64,000 bases of DNA from an uncultured Clostridia bacterium (GTDB lineage Bacteria; Bacillota; Clostridia; Lachnospirales; Cellulosilyticaceae): positions 1 to 64,000 of the forward strand of contig CALJNR010000021.1 of assembly GCA_937981575.1 (NCBI GenBank), read 5' to 3'. A program made the translations under genes and the position numbers. The notes beneath the pieces are model-generated. The model was not told where the DNA came from, made no database searches, and saw only the letters and a list, made by a program, of their open reading frames with translations. This document shows, piece after piece, positions 1-7,978 of the stretch; position 1 is the stretch's first letter, and the number at the start of each line of letters is the position of its first letter.

Positions 1-973
1 GGCGCCAAAAGGCGGATTATTACCAGTACTTGCAGGTGTTTTAGTTTCAACAGTAGTAACCTTCTTAACAGCATCTGTACTCATTAAGAAAACAAATGAA
101 GATGAAGGTGATTTTGAATCAGCTAAAGAAAAAATGACAGAGCTTAAAGGCAAAAAATCAAGTGTTGTAGCGACATCAGATGTTGTCACAGCAAAAACAG
201 GTGTTAGAAAAATCGTTGTAGCATGTGACGCAGGTATGGGGTCAAGTGCTATGGGTGCCAGTAGGCTTAAAAGTAAAATCAAACAAGCTGGACTTAATAT
301 TGAAGTTATAAATACAGCTATTGAGGCTATTCCTAAAGATGCAGATATTGTTATTACTCATGAAAGACTAACAGCAAGAGCAAAAAAAGCGGCACCTTGG
401 GCAGAGCATATTTCATTGGAAGACTTTATTAATACGCATCTTTATGATGATCTAGTAAAAGAATTAGTTATTCTTCAGAATCCAGAAACATATGGTACAT
501 TCAATGAAGCAGATGCAAAAGAATTGCCAGAAGAAGTGGTTGAAGAAAGCGGTCCGCTTAGCAAAAAGAACATTAAGCTTGGTCTTAAAAGCGTAAGTAA
601 AACAGAAGCTATCAAAATGGCAGGACAGCTTCTTGTAGACAGCGGATATGTAGATCCTGAATATATTGATGCCATGCTTGAAAGAGAAGCTGGACTTACA
701 ACCTATATTGGCAATGGAGCAGCAATCCCTCATGGCGTTTATGAGGCCAAAGAAAACATTCATAAAACAGGTATCAGTATTTTGCAGTTTCCAGAAGGCG
801 TAGATTTTGGAGATGGGCTCGCGTATCTGGTAATAGGGATTGCAGGAATAGGCAATGAGCACCTTATGATTCTAGCTAATTTGGCAGAAATGCTGGAAGA
901 TGAAACAAAGGTTGAAGAACTTAGGAAAACAACAAGCGTAGATTATATGTACAAACAATTTGCAAGACAATAA
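1..973 (+). CDS. mtlA: PTS mannitol-type permease EIICBA, C-terminal part (left edge cut)
   Basis: Membrane permease and phosphotransferase that takes up a hexitol, probably mannitol, and phosphorylates it. The reading frame is open from base 2 at the left edge. It begins with a hydrophobic segment typical of the end of a mannitol EIIC domain, then a linker, a EIIB domain with the phospho-cysteine loop VVACDAGMGSS (Cys codon 224-226), and a EIIA domain with phospho-histidine in AAIPHGVYEA (His codon 731-733). Fused EIICBA of this order is known for Firmicute and enterobacterial MtlA. The ATG at 134 is an internal methionine, not the start. The gene leads an operon with a 1-phosphofructokinase-like gene, a SorE-like dehydrogenase, HPr and EI. 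No MtlD-type mannitol-1-phosphate dehydrogenase is present in the visible part. Substrate is inferred from EII class only; fructose cannot be excluded. Confidence 0.9.
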   Translation, partial: APKGGLLPVLAGVLVSTVVTFLTASVLIKKTNEDEGDFESAKEKMTELKGKKSSVVATSDVVTAKTGVRKIVVACDAGMGSSAMGASRLKSKIKQAGLNIEVINTAIEAIPKDADIVITHERLTARAKKAAPWAEHISLEDFINTHLYDDLVKELVILQNPETYGTFNEADAKELPEEVVEESGPLSKKNIKLGLKSVSKTEAIKMAGQLLVDSGYVDPEYIDAMLEREAGLTTYIGNGAAIPHGVYEAKENIHKTGISILQFPEGVDFGDGLAYLVIGIAGIGNEHLMILANLAEMLEDETKVEELRKTTSVDYMYKQFARQ

Positions 974-978
974 GAAGT

Positions 979-1083
979 AAAGTACCTATTAGGCAAGCAC
1001 CACAAATAAGAAGCTGTAAGGGCTATACTAGCCTATTCATCACCTAAGGGATTTAGGATGTGTTTACCTAATAGGGCTTAACA
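979..1083 (+). other. intercistronic folded RNA segment between mtlA and the kinase gene
   Basis: The 125-base gap holds a long stem: CCTATTAGG (985-993) pairs with CCTAATAGG (1067-1075), continued inward by AAGCAC (995-1000) with GTGTTT (1060-1065). It encloses two smaller hairpins, GGCTA/TAGCC (1021-1033) and CCTAA/TTAGG (1043-1057), giving a three-way-junction-like shape. There is no T run after it, so it does not look like an intrinsic terminator. It may set mRNA stability or processing between permease and enzyme cistrons; function is unknown. Confidence 0.5.
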
Positions 1084-1098
1084 AGAAAGGGAAAAGCG

Positions 1099-2031
1099 AT
1101 GATTTATACAGTAACATTAAACCCAGCTGTTGATAAAACTATTTTATTAAGTAATCTGACAGTGGATCATGTGAATCGTGCAGAAACTGTAAGGGAAGAT
1201 ACAGGAGGAAAAGGAATCAACGTTTCTAAAATGATCAAAAACCTCAAAGGAGAAAGTATGGCCTTGGGTCTTTGTGCAGGAAAAACCGGAGAATTTATAG
1301 AGGAGCAACTGGATAAAATGGGCATTAAGCATCATTTTATAAAAGCTGAGGGGCAGACAAGAACCAATATAAAAATCGTGGATAAAATGCAAGGCACTTA
1401 TACAGATATCAATGAGGTAGGTGCGGGGGTAAAAGAGGAAGTTTTAAAAGAACTGGAAGAACTTATCTTTAGTTATTTATCTGAAGGTGACTTTTTAGTA
1501 CTTGCTGGCAGTGTGCCAACAAATGTTTCTAAAGCAATTTATAAAAAGTGGATTCAAAGGGCTAAGGAAGTTAATGCAAAAGTTGTATTAGATGCAGACA
1601 GAGAGCTGCTTAAAGAAGGTTTAGAAGCAGGGCCATACCTCATTAAGCCTAATATTCATGAACTAGAAGAATTATGTGGACAAAAAATAGATTCGCCTGA
1701 AATGGCAGTTAAGCTCGCAAGAGATTTGATGAAAGATAATATCGAAGTAATTGTGATTTCCAGAGGAGATAAGGGATGTATTGTTGTAAAAAAAGATGAA
1801 GCCCTTTTAATAGAAGGTCTTAAAGTATCAGTAAAAAGTACTGTTGGAGCAGGAGATTCTATGGTTGCCGCCCTTACTTACGCCCTTCACCAAAAGGACT
1901 CATTAAAGGAAGCCATTACACTTGGAGTAGCTGCCAGTGCAGCAACTGTTATGCAAGAAGGAACAATTATGGGAGAATGGGAAACCATCAAAGAGCTTAA
2001 ACAAAAAATTAATATTATGGTGATAGAATAG
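1099..2031 (+). CDS. fruK: 1-phosphofructokinase-like PfkB family kinase
   Basis: Cytosolic sugar-phosphate kinase, most likely fructose-1-phosphate + ATP to fructose-1,6-bisphosphate. The 310-residue length fits FruK. It starts with the family signature TVTLNPAVDKT, has the substrate-site glycines TGGKGINVSKM near residue 40, and the ATP/anion-hole and catalytic aspartate motif VGAGDSMVA near residue 250. Tagatose-6-phosphate kinase (LacC) is a close relative and cannot be excluded by eye. The start ATG follows AAGAAAGGG. It lies 11 bases before the dehydrogenase gene, so they are clearly co-transcribed. Its presence in a mannitol-type operon is unusual because classical mannitol catabolism gives fructose-6-phosphate and needs no such kinase. 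Confidence 0.85.
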   Translation: MIYTVTLNPAVDKTILLSNLTVDHVNRAETVREDTGGKGINVSKMIKNLKGESMALGLCAGKTGEFIEEQLDKMGIKHHFIKAEGQTRTNIKIVDKMQGTYTDINEVGAGVKEEVLKELEELIFSYLSEGDFLVLAGSVPTNVSKAIYKKWIQRAKEVNAKVVLDADRELLKEGLEAGPYLIKPNIHELEELCGQKIDSPEMAVKLARDLMKDNIEVIVISRGDKGCIVVKKDEALLIEGLKVSVKSTVGAGDSMVAALTYALHQKDSLKEAITLGVAASAATVMQEGTIMGEWETIKELKQKINIMVIE

Positions 2032-2042
2032 GAGAATAAGGT

Positions 2043-3302
2043 ATGAAAACAAGAGCAGTAAGATTATATGATGTGAATACATTAAAACTGGAAGAGTTTG
2101 AACTTCCACAGATTAAAGATGATGAGATCCTTGCACAAGTTGTATCAGATAGTATCTGTATGTCCACCTATAAAGCAGTTATTCAAGGCTCAAAACACAA
2201 AAGAGTACCAGAAAACATAGCAGAACACCCAACGATTATGGGACATGAGTTTGCAGGTATTATTGTAGAAGTAGGCGATAAGTGGAAAGACCAGTTTAAG
2301 CCAGGTGAAAAGTTTGCGATTCAGCCAGCTTTAAACTATAAAGGAAGTCCCTATGCACCAGGCTATTCATTCGAATTTTTTGGAGGCAATGCAACTTATA
2401 CGATTATTCCTCAGGAAGTTATGGAGCTTGGATTTTTGCTGAAATATGAAGGAGAAGGTTTTTATGAAGCCTCTTTAGCAGAACCTATGTCTTGTATCAT
2501 CGGTGGTTTTCATGCTAACTACCACACTGAAACAGGCAAATATGTACACCACATGGGAATCGTGGAAGGTGGAAAAATGGCACTATTAGCAGGCGTTGGT
2601 CCTATGGGACTTGGTGCGATAGATTATGCTCTTCACTGTGATAGAAAGCCAGGAATCCTTGTGGTGACTGACATTGACGAAACAAGAATCAACCGTGCAA
2701 AAACCTTATTTAGTGAAGACCATGCAAAAGAATGCGGCGTTGAACTTATTTATGTGAATACAAAAGATATTGAAGATGTTCCTGGATATTTAAACAGTCT
2801 TGTTGGCAATACTGGATATGATGATGTTTTTGTTTATGCACCAGTACGTAAGCTTATTGAAGATGCTGATAAAATTTTAGGCAAAGACGGCTGTATGAAT
2901 TTCTTTGCAGGACCAACTGATACAGGGTTTTCAGCCTCTGTTAACTTCTATAACGTTCACTATACACCAACACATATCATGGGTTCAACAGGCGGTAATG
3001 ATGATGATATGAGAGAGTCGCTTGAAATGTCAGCTAAAGGTCTTATCAACCCAGCTGTTATGATTACCCACGTAGGAGGGATTGACAGTACTATTGATGC
3101 GATCTTAGATCTTCCTAATATTCCAGGAGGCAAAAAGCTTATTTACAATGGAATAGATATGCCGCTGATTGCCCTTGAAGACTTTAGAGTAAAGGGCGAA
3201 ACGAATGCTTTTTATAAAGAATTAGCAGATATTATTGACAAACATAAAGGATTATGGTCTGCTGAAGCAGAGCGTTATTTATTAAATCATTTCGGACAGT
3301 AA
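2043..3302 (+). CDS. SorE-like zinc-binding sugar-phosphate dehydrogenase (MDR superfamily)
   Basis: Medium-chain dehydrogenase of 419 residues, longer than ordinary alcohol or sorbitol dehydrogenases. The opening (LKLEEFELPQIKDDEILA), the HEFAG zinc-region motif near residue 70, the PGYSFEFFGGNATY segment, the nucleotide-binding stretch LAGVGPMGLGAIDYALH and the ending GLWSAEAERYLL resemble, from memory, L-sorbose-1-phosphate reductase (SorE) and its relatives. SorE works on the carbon next to the phosphate. Beside a mannitol permease and a 1-phosphofructokinase, a matching activity on mannitol-1-phosphate would give fructose-1-phosphate. The family call is fairly secure, the substrate is inference. 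RBS AGGAGAATAAGGT precedes the ATG. Confidence 0.75.
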   Translation: MKTRAVRLYDVNTLKLEEFELPQIKDDEILAQVVSDSICMSTYKAVIQGSKHKRVPENIAEHPTIMGHEFAGIIVEVGDKWKDQFKPGEKFAIQPALNYKGSPYAPGYSFEFFGGNATYTIIPQEVMELGFLLKYEGEGFYEASLAEPMSCIIGGFHANYHTETGKYVHHMGIVEGGKMALLAGVGPMGLGAIDYALHCDRKPGILVVTDIDETRINRAKTLFSEDHAKECGVELIYVNTKDIEDVPGYLNSLVGNTGYDDVFVYAPVRKLIEDADKILGKDGCMNFFAGPTDTGFSASVNFYNVHYTPTHIMGSTGGNDDDMRESLEMSAKGLINPAVMITHVGGIDSTIDAILDLPNIPGGKKLIYNGIDMPLIALEDFRVKGETNAFYKELADIIDKHKGLWSAEAERYLLNHFGQ

Positions 3303-3313
3303 AGGAGATTATT

Positions 3314-3586
3314 ATGGAAAAAATTACATTAACTTTAACAAATGCACAAGGAATGCATGCAAGACCTGCAAGTCTGCTTACTAAACTAGTAAAAGATTTT
3401 CAATCAGAAATTTATTTTTATAAAAATGATATAGATAATAAAAAATATCAGCCAAAGAGTATTCTTTCTGTTATGTCTGTAGGCGCTATGAAAGGCGATA
3501 AACTCACTTTTGTTGCAGAAGGAAGTGATGAGAAAGAAGCTATAAAAGCGATAAAAGAATTTATTGAGGGCGGATGCGGCGAATAG
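3314..3586 (+). CDS. ptsH: PTS phosphocarrier protein HPr
   Basis: Cytosolic phosphocarrier that passes phosphate from Enzyme I to sugar-specific EIIA domains. It has 90 residues. His15 lies in the canonical GMHARPAS motif, and the regulatory serine lies in QPKSILSVMSVGAMKGD at residue 49, three positions later than the textbook Ser46 because the preceding loop (YKNDIDNKKY) is longer. The conserved serine context suggests control by HPr kinase/phosphorylase as in other Firmicutes. The gene sits 11 bases after the dehydrogenase and just before Enzyme I, so general PTS components are co-expressed with this sugar operon. Confidence 0.95.
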   Translation: MEKITLTLTNAQGMHARPASLLTKLVKDFQSEIYFYKNDIDNKKYQPKSILSVMSVGAMKGDKLTFVAEGSDEKEAIKAIKEFIEGGCGE

Positions 3587-3596
3587 GAGGTATACT

Positions 3597-5315
3597 ATGA
3601 TCAGCATACAGGGGACACCTATTTCTCCAGGGATAGCCATTGGAAAAGTTGTTGTAAAAGGAAACGCTAAGCATGACATTCAATTTATACAAGGGAAAAA
3701 CCCTAACGATGAAAAAAGACGTTTTAATGATGCAAGGCTAAAAGCAATAAAAGAAGTCAATAAAATTTATCAAGAAATGAATGAAACTAAAAGTGCAAAT
3801 GAGGCTCAGATCTTTGCAGCACATATCACGATGCTGGAGGATACAGAGCTTATTGATGGCGTAGAAGCAGTTATTGACGAACATAGCTGTAATGCAGAAT
3901 GGGCGCTCCAGCATGTAGCCAATTACTTTATAGGCATTTTTGAAGAAATGCAGGATGACTATATGAAAGAGCGTGCGCTGGATATCAAAGATATTACCAG
4001 ACGCATTCAAAGAGCTTTATCTGGTGAAGAAGATTTTAATTTTTTAGATTTGAAAGAACCTGCAATCATTTTAGCTGATGATCTAACCCCATCTGATACA
4101 GCGCAGATGAATCCAAGTTTAGTTTTAGGCATTATTAATGAGATAGGAGGCCCTACCTCTCATGCGGCAATTATTGCCAGAATGCTAGGTATTCCACTTA
4201 TCGTTTCTCCTAATATTACTTCTGTCATTAGTTATGGACAAGAAATAGTTTTTGATGGAAGCACCGGTGTGATCTACGTTGAACCGACCGAGGAGTGTAT
4301 AAAGAAGTATGAAGAAAAGCAGAAGGAACTGGCAGATAAAAGAGCTGCTCTTGAAAAGCTTAAAGGGACAAAAAGTATAACTCAGGATGGTTTTAAGGTA
4401 GAGCTAGCAGGAAATATTGGGGCGCCTAAAGATGTAAAAATGGTTTTAGAGCAAGATGGAGAAGGAGTAGGTCTTTTTAGAACAGAGTTTCTTTATATGG
4501 AAAGAGAAGATTTTCCGACAGAAGAAGAGCAGTTTGAAGCCTATAAAGAAGTTCTTGTAAAAATGGAGGGGCGTCCAGTCGTTATAAGAACGCTGGATAT
4601 TGGCGGAGATAAGGAACTTGATTATCTTGAAATTCCAAAAGAGATGAATCCTTTTCTTGGCTGCAGGGCCATAAGATTTTGTTTAACAAAGCCAGAACTA
4701 TGGAAAGTACAGCTTAAGGCACTGCTTAGAGCAAGTATTTACGGAGAACTTCGTATTATGATTCCTATGATTGCAGATATGGAAGAACTCTATGAAGCAA
4801 AGACAATAATAGAAGAAGCTAAGAGAGAACTAAGAGAGCAAAATATAGCATTCAATGAAAAGATCCCTGTGGGTATGATGATGGAAACACCGGCAGCGGC
4901 AGTGATGGCGGACCTGTTTGCTCAAGAAGTAGACTTTTTCAGTATAGGGACCAATGATCTTATTCAGTATACGATTGCAGTTGATCGTATGAATACTGAG
5001 GTGTCTCACCTGTATTCCCCTTATCAGCCAGCTGTTATCCGCCTTATTAAAAACATTGTGGACAGTGCCCACCGTGCTGGCATTTGGGCAGGAATGTGCG
5101 GAGAAGCAGCAGCGGATAAAAACCTGCTTCCTGTCTGGATCGGGCTTGGAATTGATGAACTTAGCATGTCTGCACGATCTATTTTAGAAACGAGAGAATA
5201 CATTCAGAAGTTATCTCAGAAAAATTGTATAGATTTAGTGCAAGAAGTGCTTTTACTTAAAACAAAGCAGCTTATTGAAGAGAGGCTAGAAAACGAAACA
5301 TTAAAGCGCTTTTAA
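3597..5315 (+). CDS. ptsI: PTS Enzyme I (phosphoenolpyruvate-protein phosphotransferase)
   Basis: Cytosolic enzyme that autophosphorylates from phosphoenolpyruvate and donates to HPr. I choose the ATG at 3597, which follows ATAGGAGG with a six-base spacer, giving 572 residues; an earlier in-frame ATG at 3564 lies inside ptsH and has no such site. Visible motifs: active histidine in GGPTSHAAIIARMLGIP near residue 188, the PEP-binding VGMMMETPAAAVMAD, the signature DFFSIGTNDLIQYTIAVDR, and the C-terminal cysteine in AGMCGEAAAD. Domain order (HPr-binding, phosphohistidine, PEP-utilising barrel) is normal. It is the last gene of the operon and is followed by an intrinsic terminator. Confidence 0.95.
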   Translation: MISIQGTPISPGIAIGKVVVKGNAKHDIQFIQGKNPNDEKRRFNDARLKAIKEVNKIYQEMNETKSANEAQIFAAHITMLEDTELIDGVEAVIDEHSCNAEWALQHVANYFIGIFEEMQDDYMKERALDIKDITRRIQRALSGEEDFNFLDLKEPAIILADDLTPSDTAQMNPSLVLGIINEIGGPTSHAAIIARMLGIPLIVSPNITSVISYGQEIVFDGSTGVIYVEPTEECIKKYEEKQKELADKRAALEKLKGTKSITQDGFKVELAGNIGAPKDVKMVLEQDGEGVGLFRTEFLYMEREDFPTEEEQFEAYKEVLVKMEGRPVVIRTLDIGGDKELDYLEIPKEMNPFLGCRAIRFCLTKPELWKVQLKALLRASIYGELRIMIPMIADMEELYEAKTIIEEAKRELREQNIAFNEKIPVGMMMETPAAAVMADLFAQEVDFFSIGTNDLIQYTIAVDRMNTEVSHLYSPYQPAVIRLIKNIVDSAHRAGIWAGMCGEAAADKNLLPVWIGLGIDELSMSARSILETREYIQKLSQKNCIDLVQEVLLLKTKQLIEERLENETLKRF

Positions 5316-5409: not shown

Positions 5410-6600
5410 TTGAAAAGGTTTTGGAATACAAAAATATCAGCTATTTTAGGTATCTTCTTGCTAGCCTTAAATCTGTTCCTTTGTGTGTCATTGTATTTTG
5501 TACAAGCTCTGTCTAGTGCTCCAGTTGCCAGTGTAATATTAAAGATAGTGCCTGCACTGATGGGCGCAGTATCAGTCAGCATGTTTGTAGCGTTCTTTGG
5601 ATTTAGAAAGGCTGTTAAAGAACACATGAAGGAGATTCAGGGATGGATTCATGCTGTAAGTGAGCATGATTTTAACTATGAGCTTCCAAATGAACATACA
5701 GACGAAATAGGCTTAGTACATAACAGTCTGAATGAAATGTCAAATAAGCTGAAAGCGGAATATAATAGGGCTGCAACTATAATGCAGACAAATAATGCAG
5801 AAGATGCTCAATTTAGAAGTGACATGGATCAAGGTAAGCAGGTCGTTCATAAAGTTAAAAAGTCCATGCAGGAAGTTGAAGATAAGATGCATGCCCAAAT
5901 GAGTATTTCAAATAAAATAACAGATACGTTTGCTGAAATTACAAAAGGCATGAATGATATTGACAGTGATCTTCAAAATTTTGTTGAAGCTTTTGTCGGC
6001 GCATCTCTAAAAGCAGAAGATGGCGCAAAAGTTATTAATCTTGTTTTCAATCAGATGAAATCCATAGGAGAGAAGTTCGACCTTTCAACAAGAACAATCA
6101 ATCATTTGGAAGACAATTCAAAAGAAATTGGACGTATTGTATCAATCATAACTAATATTGCCCAGCAGACCAACCTGCTTGCATTAAATGCGGCAATAGA
6201 AGCAGCCCGTGCAGGAGATCAAGGCAAGGGCTTTGCAGTTGTAGCTGGGGAAGTTAAAAAGCTTGCAGAACAGTCAGCAGGAGCAGCCAGCGAGATTGGC
6301 AGTCTTATTCAGAAAATCCAGCTTGAAATTAATCAGGCAGTTGTATCTATGGGAGAAGGGAATGGCGCTATTGAAGTAGGGGTTTCAATGGTTGAAGATG
6401 CAGGGAAATTCTTTGATAATATTTTCAAAGACATTGAACAAGTATCTACTCAAATGATGGATGTTTCAGCTGTTATAGAAGAAGTATTTTCGGCTACGCA
6501 AAATACAATTAAGTCTTCAGAAGAAATATGCAGAATTTCAACTCAGCTGGAAGAGCATATTACAATACTTTCGGCAGATCTAAGCAAGGTTTCAGCGTAA
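5410..6600 (+). CDS. methyl-accepting chemotaxis protein without an extracytoplasmic sensor domain
   Basis: Membrane chemoreceptor of 396 residues. The start is a TTG after AAAAAGGGGGAAG. Two hydrophobic segments (about residues 9-34 and 40-66) form a hairpin with almost no outside loop, so the usual ligand-binding domain is missing. A HAMP-like and coiled-coil stretch follows, then the signalling hairpin tip with the strongly conserved region [19 protein letters not shown] and [18 protein letters not shown]. It would couple to CheA/CheW, which are not in the window. Sensing may be through the membrane or cytoplasm; the ligand is unknown. It is monocistronic, lying between two terminators. 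Confidence 0.88.
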
Positions 6601-6847: not shown

Positions 6848-7978
6848 ATGAAAGCCATAACTTATCAAGGAATGAAAAATGTAGAAGTGAAAAATGTAGC
6901 TGAACCCAAAATCATAAAAGATGATGATCTTATTCTTAAAGTTACGTCTACAGCAATCTGTGGATCTGATCTACACCTTATCCATGGGATGATTCCAAAT
7001 ATGCCCCATGACTATATTATCGGGCATGAAGCAATGGGGATTGTTGAAGAAGTAGGAAAGGACGTTAAAAAAGTAAAAAAAGGAGATAGGGTCATTATTC
7101 CTTTTCCTATTTCATGTGGGCACTGTTGGTACTGTGAACATGAACTTTGAAGCCAATGTGATCACTCTAATGCCAATGGAGAAGTAGGGGCAATATTTGG
7201 TTACAGCAAAACTTATGGGGGCTATGACGGTGGTCAGGCTGAGTACCTAAGAGTGCCATATGCCAATGTAGGGCCGGTTGCAGTACCAGAAGAGCTGAGC
7301 GATGAGCAGGTTCTGTTTTTAACTGATGTTTTGCCAACCTCATACTGGGGAGCAACGAATGCGAATGTTAAGATTGGAGATACAGTCGTTGTACTAGGCT
7401 GCGGTCCGGTTGGACTTATGGCGCAGAAATGGGCAGCTTATTTAGGAGCTGGGAGAATCATAGCTGTTGACTATATAGATTATCGGTTAAAACATGCCAA
7501 GAAGCATAATGATGTGGAAACATTAAACTTTGAAGATTATGATAACGTAGGGGAATATATAAAGGAAATTACAAATGGCGGAGCAGATGTAGTTATTGAC
7601 TGCGTAGGTATGGATGGTAAAATGTCAGGAATAGAACGCATCGAAACACTCTTAAAGCTTCAGGGAGGATCGAAATCTGCCCTTGAAATTGCTACTCAGG
7701 CAGTTAGAAAAGGAGGCATTGTCTCAATTGTAGGTGTGTATGGCGCAAGGTATAATAACTTTCCGCTGGGAGATTTTTTTGCACGTAATATTACGTTGAA
7801 GATGGGGCAATGTCCAGCTCATTCCTATATTCATCCTATTTTAGAACTCATTAAAGCAGGCAAAATTGATCCTACGGACATTATTACGCATAAGCTTCCT
7901 TTAGATAAAGGAGAATATGCCTACGAGATTTTTGATGCTAAAAAAGACGGCTGCATTAAAGTTATCTTGAAACCATAA
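6848..7978 (+). pseudogene. zinc-dependent alcohol dehydrogenase interrupted by one in-frame TGA
   Basis: Both halves are in the same frame and together give a full-length medium-chain alcohol/polyol dehydrogenase of about 376 residues. The first half has AICGSDLHLIHG and GHEAMGIVEE (catalytic zinc) and the structural-zinc cysteines CGHCWYC. The second half resumes with SQCDHSN (fourth cysteine), then the nucleotide-binding VVLGCGPVGLMAQ. The only lesion is TGA at 7148-7150 between EHEL and SQCDHSN. From my memory of the family a tryptophan (TGG) is expected there, so a single G-to-A change would explain it. TGA is used as a normal stop elsewhere in the window (for example uppP). Alternatives are a sequencing error or readthrough. 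RBS CTGGAGG precedes the ATG. Confidence 0.75.

Follow-up and report, generated by a model that had tools for sequence, protein, structure and literature searches.

A putative route from mannitol-1-phosphate to fructose-1-phosphate encoded by a clostridial phosphotransferase operon

It is proposed that an operon at the start of the window (the whole stretch of DNA analysed, 64,000 nucleotides from an uncultured Clostridia bacterium of the Cellulosilyticaceae) serves mannitol use through mannitol-1-phosphate, fructose-1-phosphate and fructose-1,6-bisphosphate; we regard this as the best-supported explanation and give it a probability of about 0.77. Five tightly packed genes on the forward strand encode a mannitol-type enzyme II (EII) of the phosphotransferase system (PTS), a FruK-type kinase, a SorE/YggP-like zinc dehydrogenase, HPr and enzyme I (EI). 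An earlier reading made from the letters alone (the sequence-only reading) had named these genes and claimed such an operon; both points stand, except that the EII is a 3' fragment only and the dehydrogenase belongs to a sister group of SorE, not to SorE proper. Supplied by the operon's own EI and HPr, the EII would import mannitol as mannitol-1-phosphate. The role of MtlD, the dehydrogenase of the canonical mannitol PTS, would be taken by the SorE/YggP-type enzyme acting as a mannitol-1-phosphate 2-dehydrogenase, which would oxidize C2 of mannitol-1-phosphate, probably with NAD+, to D-fructose-1-phosphate. The kinase would then form fructose-1,6-bisphosphate for glycolysis, so that fructose-6-phosphate is skipped. 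The regiochemistry of the oxidation, the substrate of the kinase and the cofactor are each what we infer from the evidence below.

SorE-like dehydrogenases replace MtlD beside mannitol-type EIIs

An order-wide comparison of 294 genomes, seeded on mannitol IIC domains and not on the dehydrogenase, yielded 52 loci in 48 genomes. A SorE-like gene (within 8 kb) lies beside 31 of these and MtlD beside 20; no locus has both, and one has neither. FruK, counted within 6 kb (tblastn underlies the FruK and gene-order counts), accompanies 18 of the 29 scorable SorE-type loci versus 0 of the 20 MtlD-type loci (Fisher p = 3e-6, a value that overstates independence, the loci being related). Strict replacement of MtlD and preferential co-occurrence with FruK, which never accompanies MtlD, thus support the route put forward in the sequence-only reading, with its catalytic step as a prediction. 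The linkage persists in several gene orders, namely EII-FruK-SorE, FruK-SorE-EII and FruK-EII-SorE. An EIICB-MtlR-EIIA array is followed by MtlD in some lineages and by FruK-SorE in others (L199, L204, L205 against L187, L219, L220), suggestive of an exchange in situ. Four SorE-type mannitol loci (L210, L211, L212 and L215), with dehydrogenases 74-76% similar, have no FruK; L210-L212 share a common block of other genes 3' of SorE.

The sequence-only reading had called for a search of genomes for the same arrangement, and it was found widely. Scanning species genomes gave 80 loci that encode close relatives of the dehydrogenase. Over half of them adjoin a mannitol-type EII, usually together with FruK; among the genera are Defluviitalea, Geosporobacter, Halanaerobium, Clostridium, Petrocella, Fusibacter, Hespellia and Butyrivibrio. 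In the dehydrogenase tree, one branch (98% support in the Shimodaira-Hasegawa-like approximate likelihood-ratio test, SH-aLRT) holds 73 rows, of which, in the sequence data compared, 70 adjoin a mannitol-type EII and 53 of these also FruK.

No mtlD could be assigned in the draft genome (3.56 Mb, 92.7% complete), as had been claimed for the operon. Its only two PF08125 genes are a tagaturonate reductase (UxaB-type) beside uxaA and a fructuronate-reductase-like gene (UxuB-type) beside uxuA, and neither matches the models for mannitol-1-phosphate dehydrogenase, whereas a control MtlD does. The window starts at base 1 of contig C21, and an mtlD gene just upstream had been named as an observation that would speak against the route. 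In G002, a 100% complete genome from the same genus, the order is MtlR-EII-FruK-SorE-HPr-EI without mtlD, the upstream genes being MtlR and EIICB, and an mtlD hidden beyond the contig edge was rejected on this ground. PF08125, the family to which MtlD (about 385 aa) belongs, is entirely absent from 12 of 30 operon-bearing named genomes.

Two isolates that carry the operon use mannitol. Defluviitalea phaphyphila Alg1 (G046, 100% complete) has one mannitol EII and one FruK, both in the operon, and no PF08125 gene; Ji et al. 2016 (PMC4818487) report growth on mannitol and its fermentation to ethanol, at 0.47 g ethanol per g. Petrocella atlantisensis (G161) likewise has the operon, its PF08125 genes being only of about 490-540 aa and located away from the EII, and mannitol supports its growth (PMC6647913). 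A different, non-phosphorylating mannitol dehydrogenase of another family may exist in these isolates.

Predicted specificity of the dehydrogenase, the kinase and the EII

SorE interconverts L-sorbose-1-phosphate and glucitol-6-phosphate at the carbon next to the phosphate. Counted from the phosphate end, the hydroxyls of glucitol-6-phosphate are arranged L,L,R,L and those of mannitol-1-phosphate L,L,R,R, the nearest three carbons being identical; oxidation at the first carbon converts the former to L-sorbose-1-phosphate and the latter to D-fructose-1-phosphate. This count of configurations confirms the stereochemical argument of the sequence-only reading, that mannitol-1-phosphate oxidized beside its phosphate gives D-fructose-1-phosphate. 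Glucitol was rejected as a substrate because its 6-phosphate would yield L-sorbose-1-phosphate, with no FruK pairing; galactitol was rejected because oxidation beside the phosphate gives D-tagatose-1-phosphate only through the opposite configuration, or else L-tagatose-1-phosphate, so that under SorE stereochemistry neither polyol offers a product with a FruK partner. Among the hexitol phosphates considered, mannitol-1-phosphate alone both resembles the SorE substrate in local stereochemistry and leads to a substrate of FruK.

The window dehydrogenase shares 46% identity over 99% of its length with the annotated Klebsiella SorE and 51% with E. coli YggP; its D. phaphyphila counterpart is encoded at 8001-9251 of L037. 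It shows the full-length similarity and the conserved C-M/L-S-S/T and HK(R/K) motifs of the SorE/YggP superfamily, and its AlphaFold2 model (mean predicted local distance difference test score, pLDDT, 90) has a sorbitol-dehydrogenase/alcohol-dehydrogenase-type fold; no close relative was found among solved structures. A neighbouring clade (100%) unites YggP of E. coli and Photobacterium with three PTS loci from clostridia, E. coli YggP thus belonging to the same broader clade as the window enzyme, and KpSorE and LpSorE stand beyond a branch of 100% SH-aLRT from the window enzyme, their long branches making the placement rough. An Asp (VVTD) follows the second Rossmann strand, which suggests NAD+ rather than NADPH as cofactor. 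A contrast between an NADP-dependent SorE and an NAD-dependent window enzyme was rejected, since the Asp after the second strand is present in both.

The window kinase passes the TIGR03828 1-phosphofructokinase equivalog model (340.6 bits, cut-off 292) and scores only 159 against the 6-phosphofructokinase II model (cut-off 353); its best match in the PDB is the fructose-1-phosphate kinase 2abq. In the genomes compared, the operon FruKs form a lineage separate from other FruK-like genes, which is consistent with co-inheritance; L229 carries a second FruK, of the fructose type.

The surviving part of the EII comprises the end of IIC, a complete IIB with the phosphocysteine loop ACDAGMGSSAMG and a complete IIA with the phosphohistidine motif AIPHG. 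It scores 311 bits against NF011663 (mannitol IICBA), and its best PDB matches are the E. coli mannitol IIA (1a3a) and IIB (1vkr). The fructose IIA model TIGR00848 gives only 49 (cut-off 103.5), so that the FruA-type EII of fruRKA operons is not matched. The intact Defluviitalea EII (L037) passes both mannitol cut-offs, with 867.6 bits for NF011663 (cut-off 589) and 543.9 for TIGR00851 (cut-off 468.4).

Alternative functions for the operon

Several observations weigh against the proposed mannitol route. SorE-like proteins 58-65% identical to the window enzyme are also encoded in clusters without a PTS, next to aldolases and a pyruvate-dehydrogenase-like complex, and the family thus extends beyond mannitol. 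A local FruK is absent at 11 of the 29 scorable SorE-type loci; in favour of the route, all nine genomes with such loci have fruK elsewhere, and two of six MtlD-type genomes checked are without any fruK. Four PF08125 matches of MtlD-like length occur in three of the 30 operon-bearing named genomes. The substrate of the operon FruK could differ, judging from its separate lineage. SorE-type and MtlD-type loci differ in their EIIC domains, which form separate, non-interleaving groups (2 changes), and the sugar specificity of the SorE-type EIIs may accordingly have changed.

The non-PTS clusters (L061, L065, L070, L077, L080, L083, L097 and L098; Bacteroidota, Clostridia and Spirochaetota) encode, besides the SorE-like protein, a pyruvate/acetoin-dehydrogenase-like complex (a fused E1 with E2 and E3), a lipoate ligase, class II aldolases and a sorbitol-6-phosphate-dehydrogenase-like short-chain dehydrogenase/reductase (SDR), which in many cases is joined to a class II aldolase domain in one protein. 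They appear to be a putative sugar or polyol pathway.

The strongest competing explanation, unlikely in our judgement, is that the SorE-like enzyme performs the chemistry of MtlD, oxidizing C5 to give fructose-6-phosphate, with the kinase acting as a 6-phosphofructokinase or serving fructose-1-phosphate that enters from fructose. It explains the non-orthologous replacement of MtlD equally well, agrees with the loci that have no local FruK, and is what the text of Ji et al. 2016 (PMC4818487) assumes in taking mannitol-1-phosphate to fructose-6-phosphate. The tie of FruK to SorE-type loci and its absence from all 20 MtlD-type loci argue against it, as do the fit of the kinase to the 1-phosphofructokinase model and the known position of SorE oxidation beside the phosphate. 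An ordinary PfkA, moreover, was found in each of the ten operon-type genomes tested, and a second fructose-6-phosphate kinase would be superfluous.

Less probable still is an operon for other or broader substrates, either fructose together with mannitol or a non-mannitol polyol, in which FruK would take fructose-1-phosphate made by the EII. The separate grouping of the SorE-type EIICs and the distinct lineage of the operon FruK point in this direction, and E. coli CmtA has been called cryptic; set against these are EII scores above the mannitol IICBA and IIC cut-offs, the growth on mannitol of D. phaphyphila, for which this is the only mannitol EII, and the unique fit of mannitol-1-phosphate described above. 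The reverse reaction, reduction of fructose-1-phosphate to mannitol-1-phosphate for mannitol or osmolyte formation, would agree with the naming of SorE as a reductase but is highly improbable, given the neighbouring genes for a PTS importer, EI and HPr (joined by MtlR at loci whose upstream end is covered), the consumption of mannitol by operon-bearing isolates, and the VVTD Asp, which would favour NAD+ over NADPH.

Relation to known systems and layout of the operon

The canonical mannitol PTS (MtlA, MtlR, MtlD) uses the same EII family, has an MtlR-like regulator as do intact operons of the present type, and would share mannitol-1-phosphate as intermediate. It differs in having MtlD, which leads to fructose-6-phosphate, whereas the present operons have a zinc-dependent medium-chain dehydrogenase/reductase (MDR) and usually FruK, with probable entry at fructose-1-phosphate and fructose-1,6-bisphosphate. 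The Klebsiella L-sorbose enzyme SorE shares the catalytic motif region and the same proposed site of oxidation beside the phosphate. The sor operon, however, encodes an EIIABCD of the mannose/fructose/sorbose family where the window has a mannitol-type EII and a FruK kinase, and sorE has a neighbour annotated only as an SDR family oxidoreductase, while the window operon has no sorbitol-6-phosphate SDR partner.

In the E. coli locus cmtB-cmtA-yggP-glpX-fumE-yggC (L116, 5127-10481), the SorE-like yggP directly follows the mannitol-type EIICB gene cmtA, whose product scores above the cut-off for mannitol IIC; of 5426 E. coli genomes, 5340 have the cmtA-yggP pair. There is no local FruK at this locus, in contrast to the window operon, and a class II fructose-bisphosphatase gene comes next instead. 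We lean, with less assurance than for the window operon itself, towards a widespread second bacterial mannitol pathway in which a SorE/YggP-family enzyme, acting as a mannitol-1-phosphate 2-dehydrogenase, yields fructose-1-phosphate, in many Clostridia and in Halanaerobium, and silent as yggP beside cmtAB in nearly all E. coli.

In Haloarcula hispanica, mannitol carbon enters glycolysis via fructose-1-phosphate and 1-phosphofructokinase (PMC11519228), but the route is unrelated: import is by an ABC system, oxidation to fructose takes place without phosphorylation and is followed by ketohexokinase, and neither a PTS nor mannitol-1-phosphate is involved. D. phaphyphila has the same operon as the window. 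In Ji et al. 2016 (PMC4818487), the legend to the pathway figure names MPDH and FRUK for mannitol, and the text gives fructose-6-phosphate as product; the accessible passages assign neither a gene nor an enzyme activity. The sequence-only reading had held the route to be undescribed. This stands in so far as no explicit description of mannitol-1-phosphate conversion to fructose-1-phosphate was found in the open literature searched, a search that left most subscription papers outside, including the sorbose enzymology of the 1970s-1990s, and is tempered by the naming of MPDH and FRUK in that legend. If the proposed route is correct, a textbook step of catabolism has an alternative, so far unrecognised, that relies on a new enzyme activity, MtlD-based annotation misses or misassigns mannitol growth in many anaerobes, carbon skips fructose-6-phosphate and the control at phosphofructokinase, which is relevant to seaweed fermentation, and both yggP of E. 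coli and the cryptic genes cmtAB gain a testable function.

Coordinates of the operon and of the genes 3' of it are given in the table. Successive operon genes are separated by 125, 11, 11 and 10 bases, and no terminator-like or promoter-like signals above chance level were found. The EI open reading frame is open from TTG 3564, the first ATG being at 3597.

Table. Genes at the start of the window.
Feature	Position	Strand	Basis or remark
Mannitol-type PTS EIICBA, 3' part	2..973	+	5' part lost at contig edge; frame open at base 2
FruK-type PfkB-family kinase, 310 aa	1099..2031	+	TIGR03828
SorE/YggP-like zinc-dependent MDR dehydrogenase, 419 aa	2043..3302	+	similarity to SorE and YggP; AlphaFold2 fold
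HPr phosphocarrier	3314..3586	+	PF00381; TIGR01003 81.5 bits (cut-off 47.9)
PTS enzyme I	about 3597..5315	+	TIGR01417 656 bits (cut-off 341.7)
Chemoreceptor-like gene	5410..6600	+	
Second zinc alcohol dehydrogenase, FdhA/Tdh-like	6848..7978	+	one in-frame stop after codon 100

The gene directly 3' of EI resembles a methyl-accepting chemotaxis protein and is kept within the genus (also at L035, L036 and L113); a connection between PTS sugars and chemotaxis is conceivable. In the second zinc alcohol dehydrogenase gene, the frame is open apart from the single stop.

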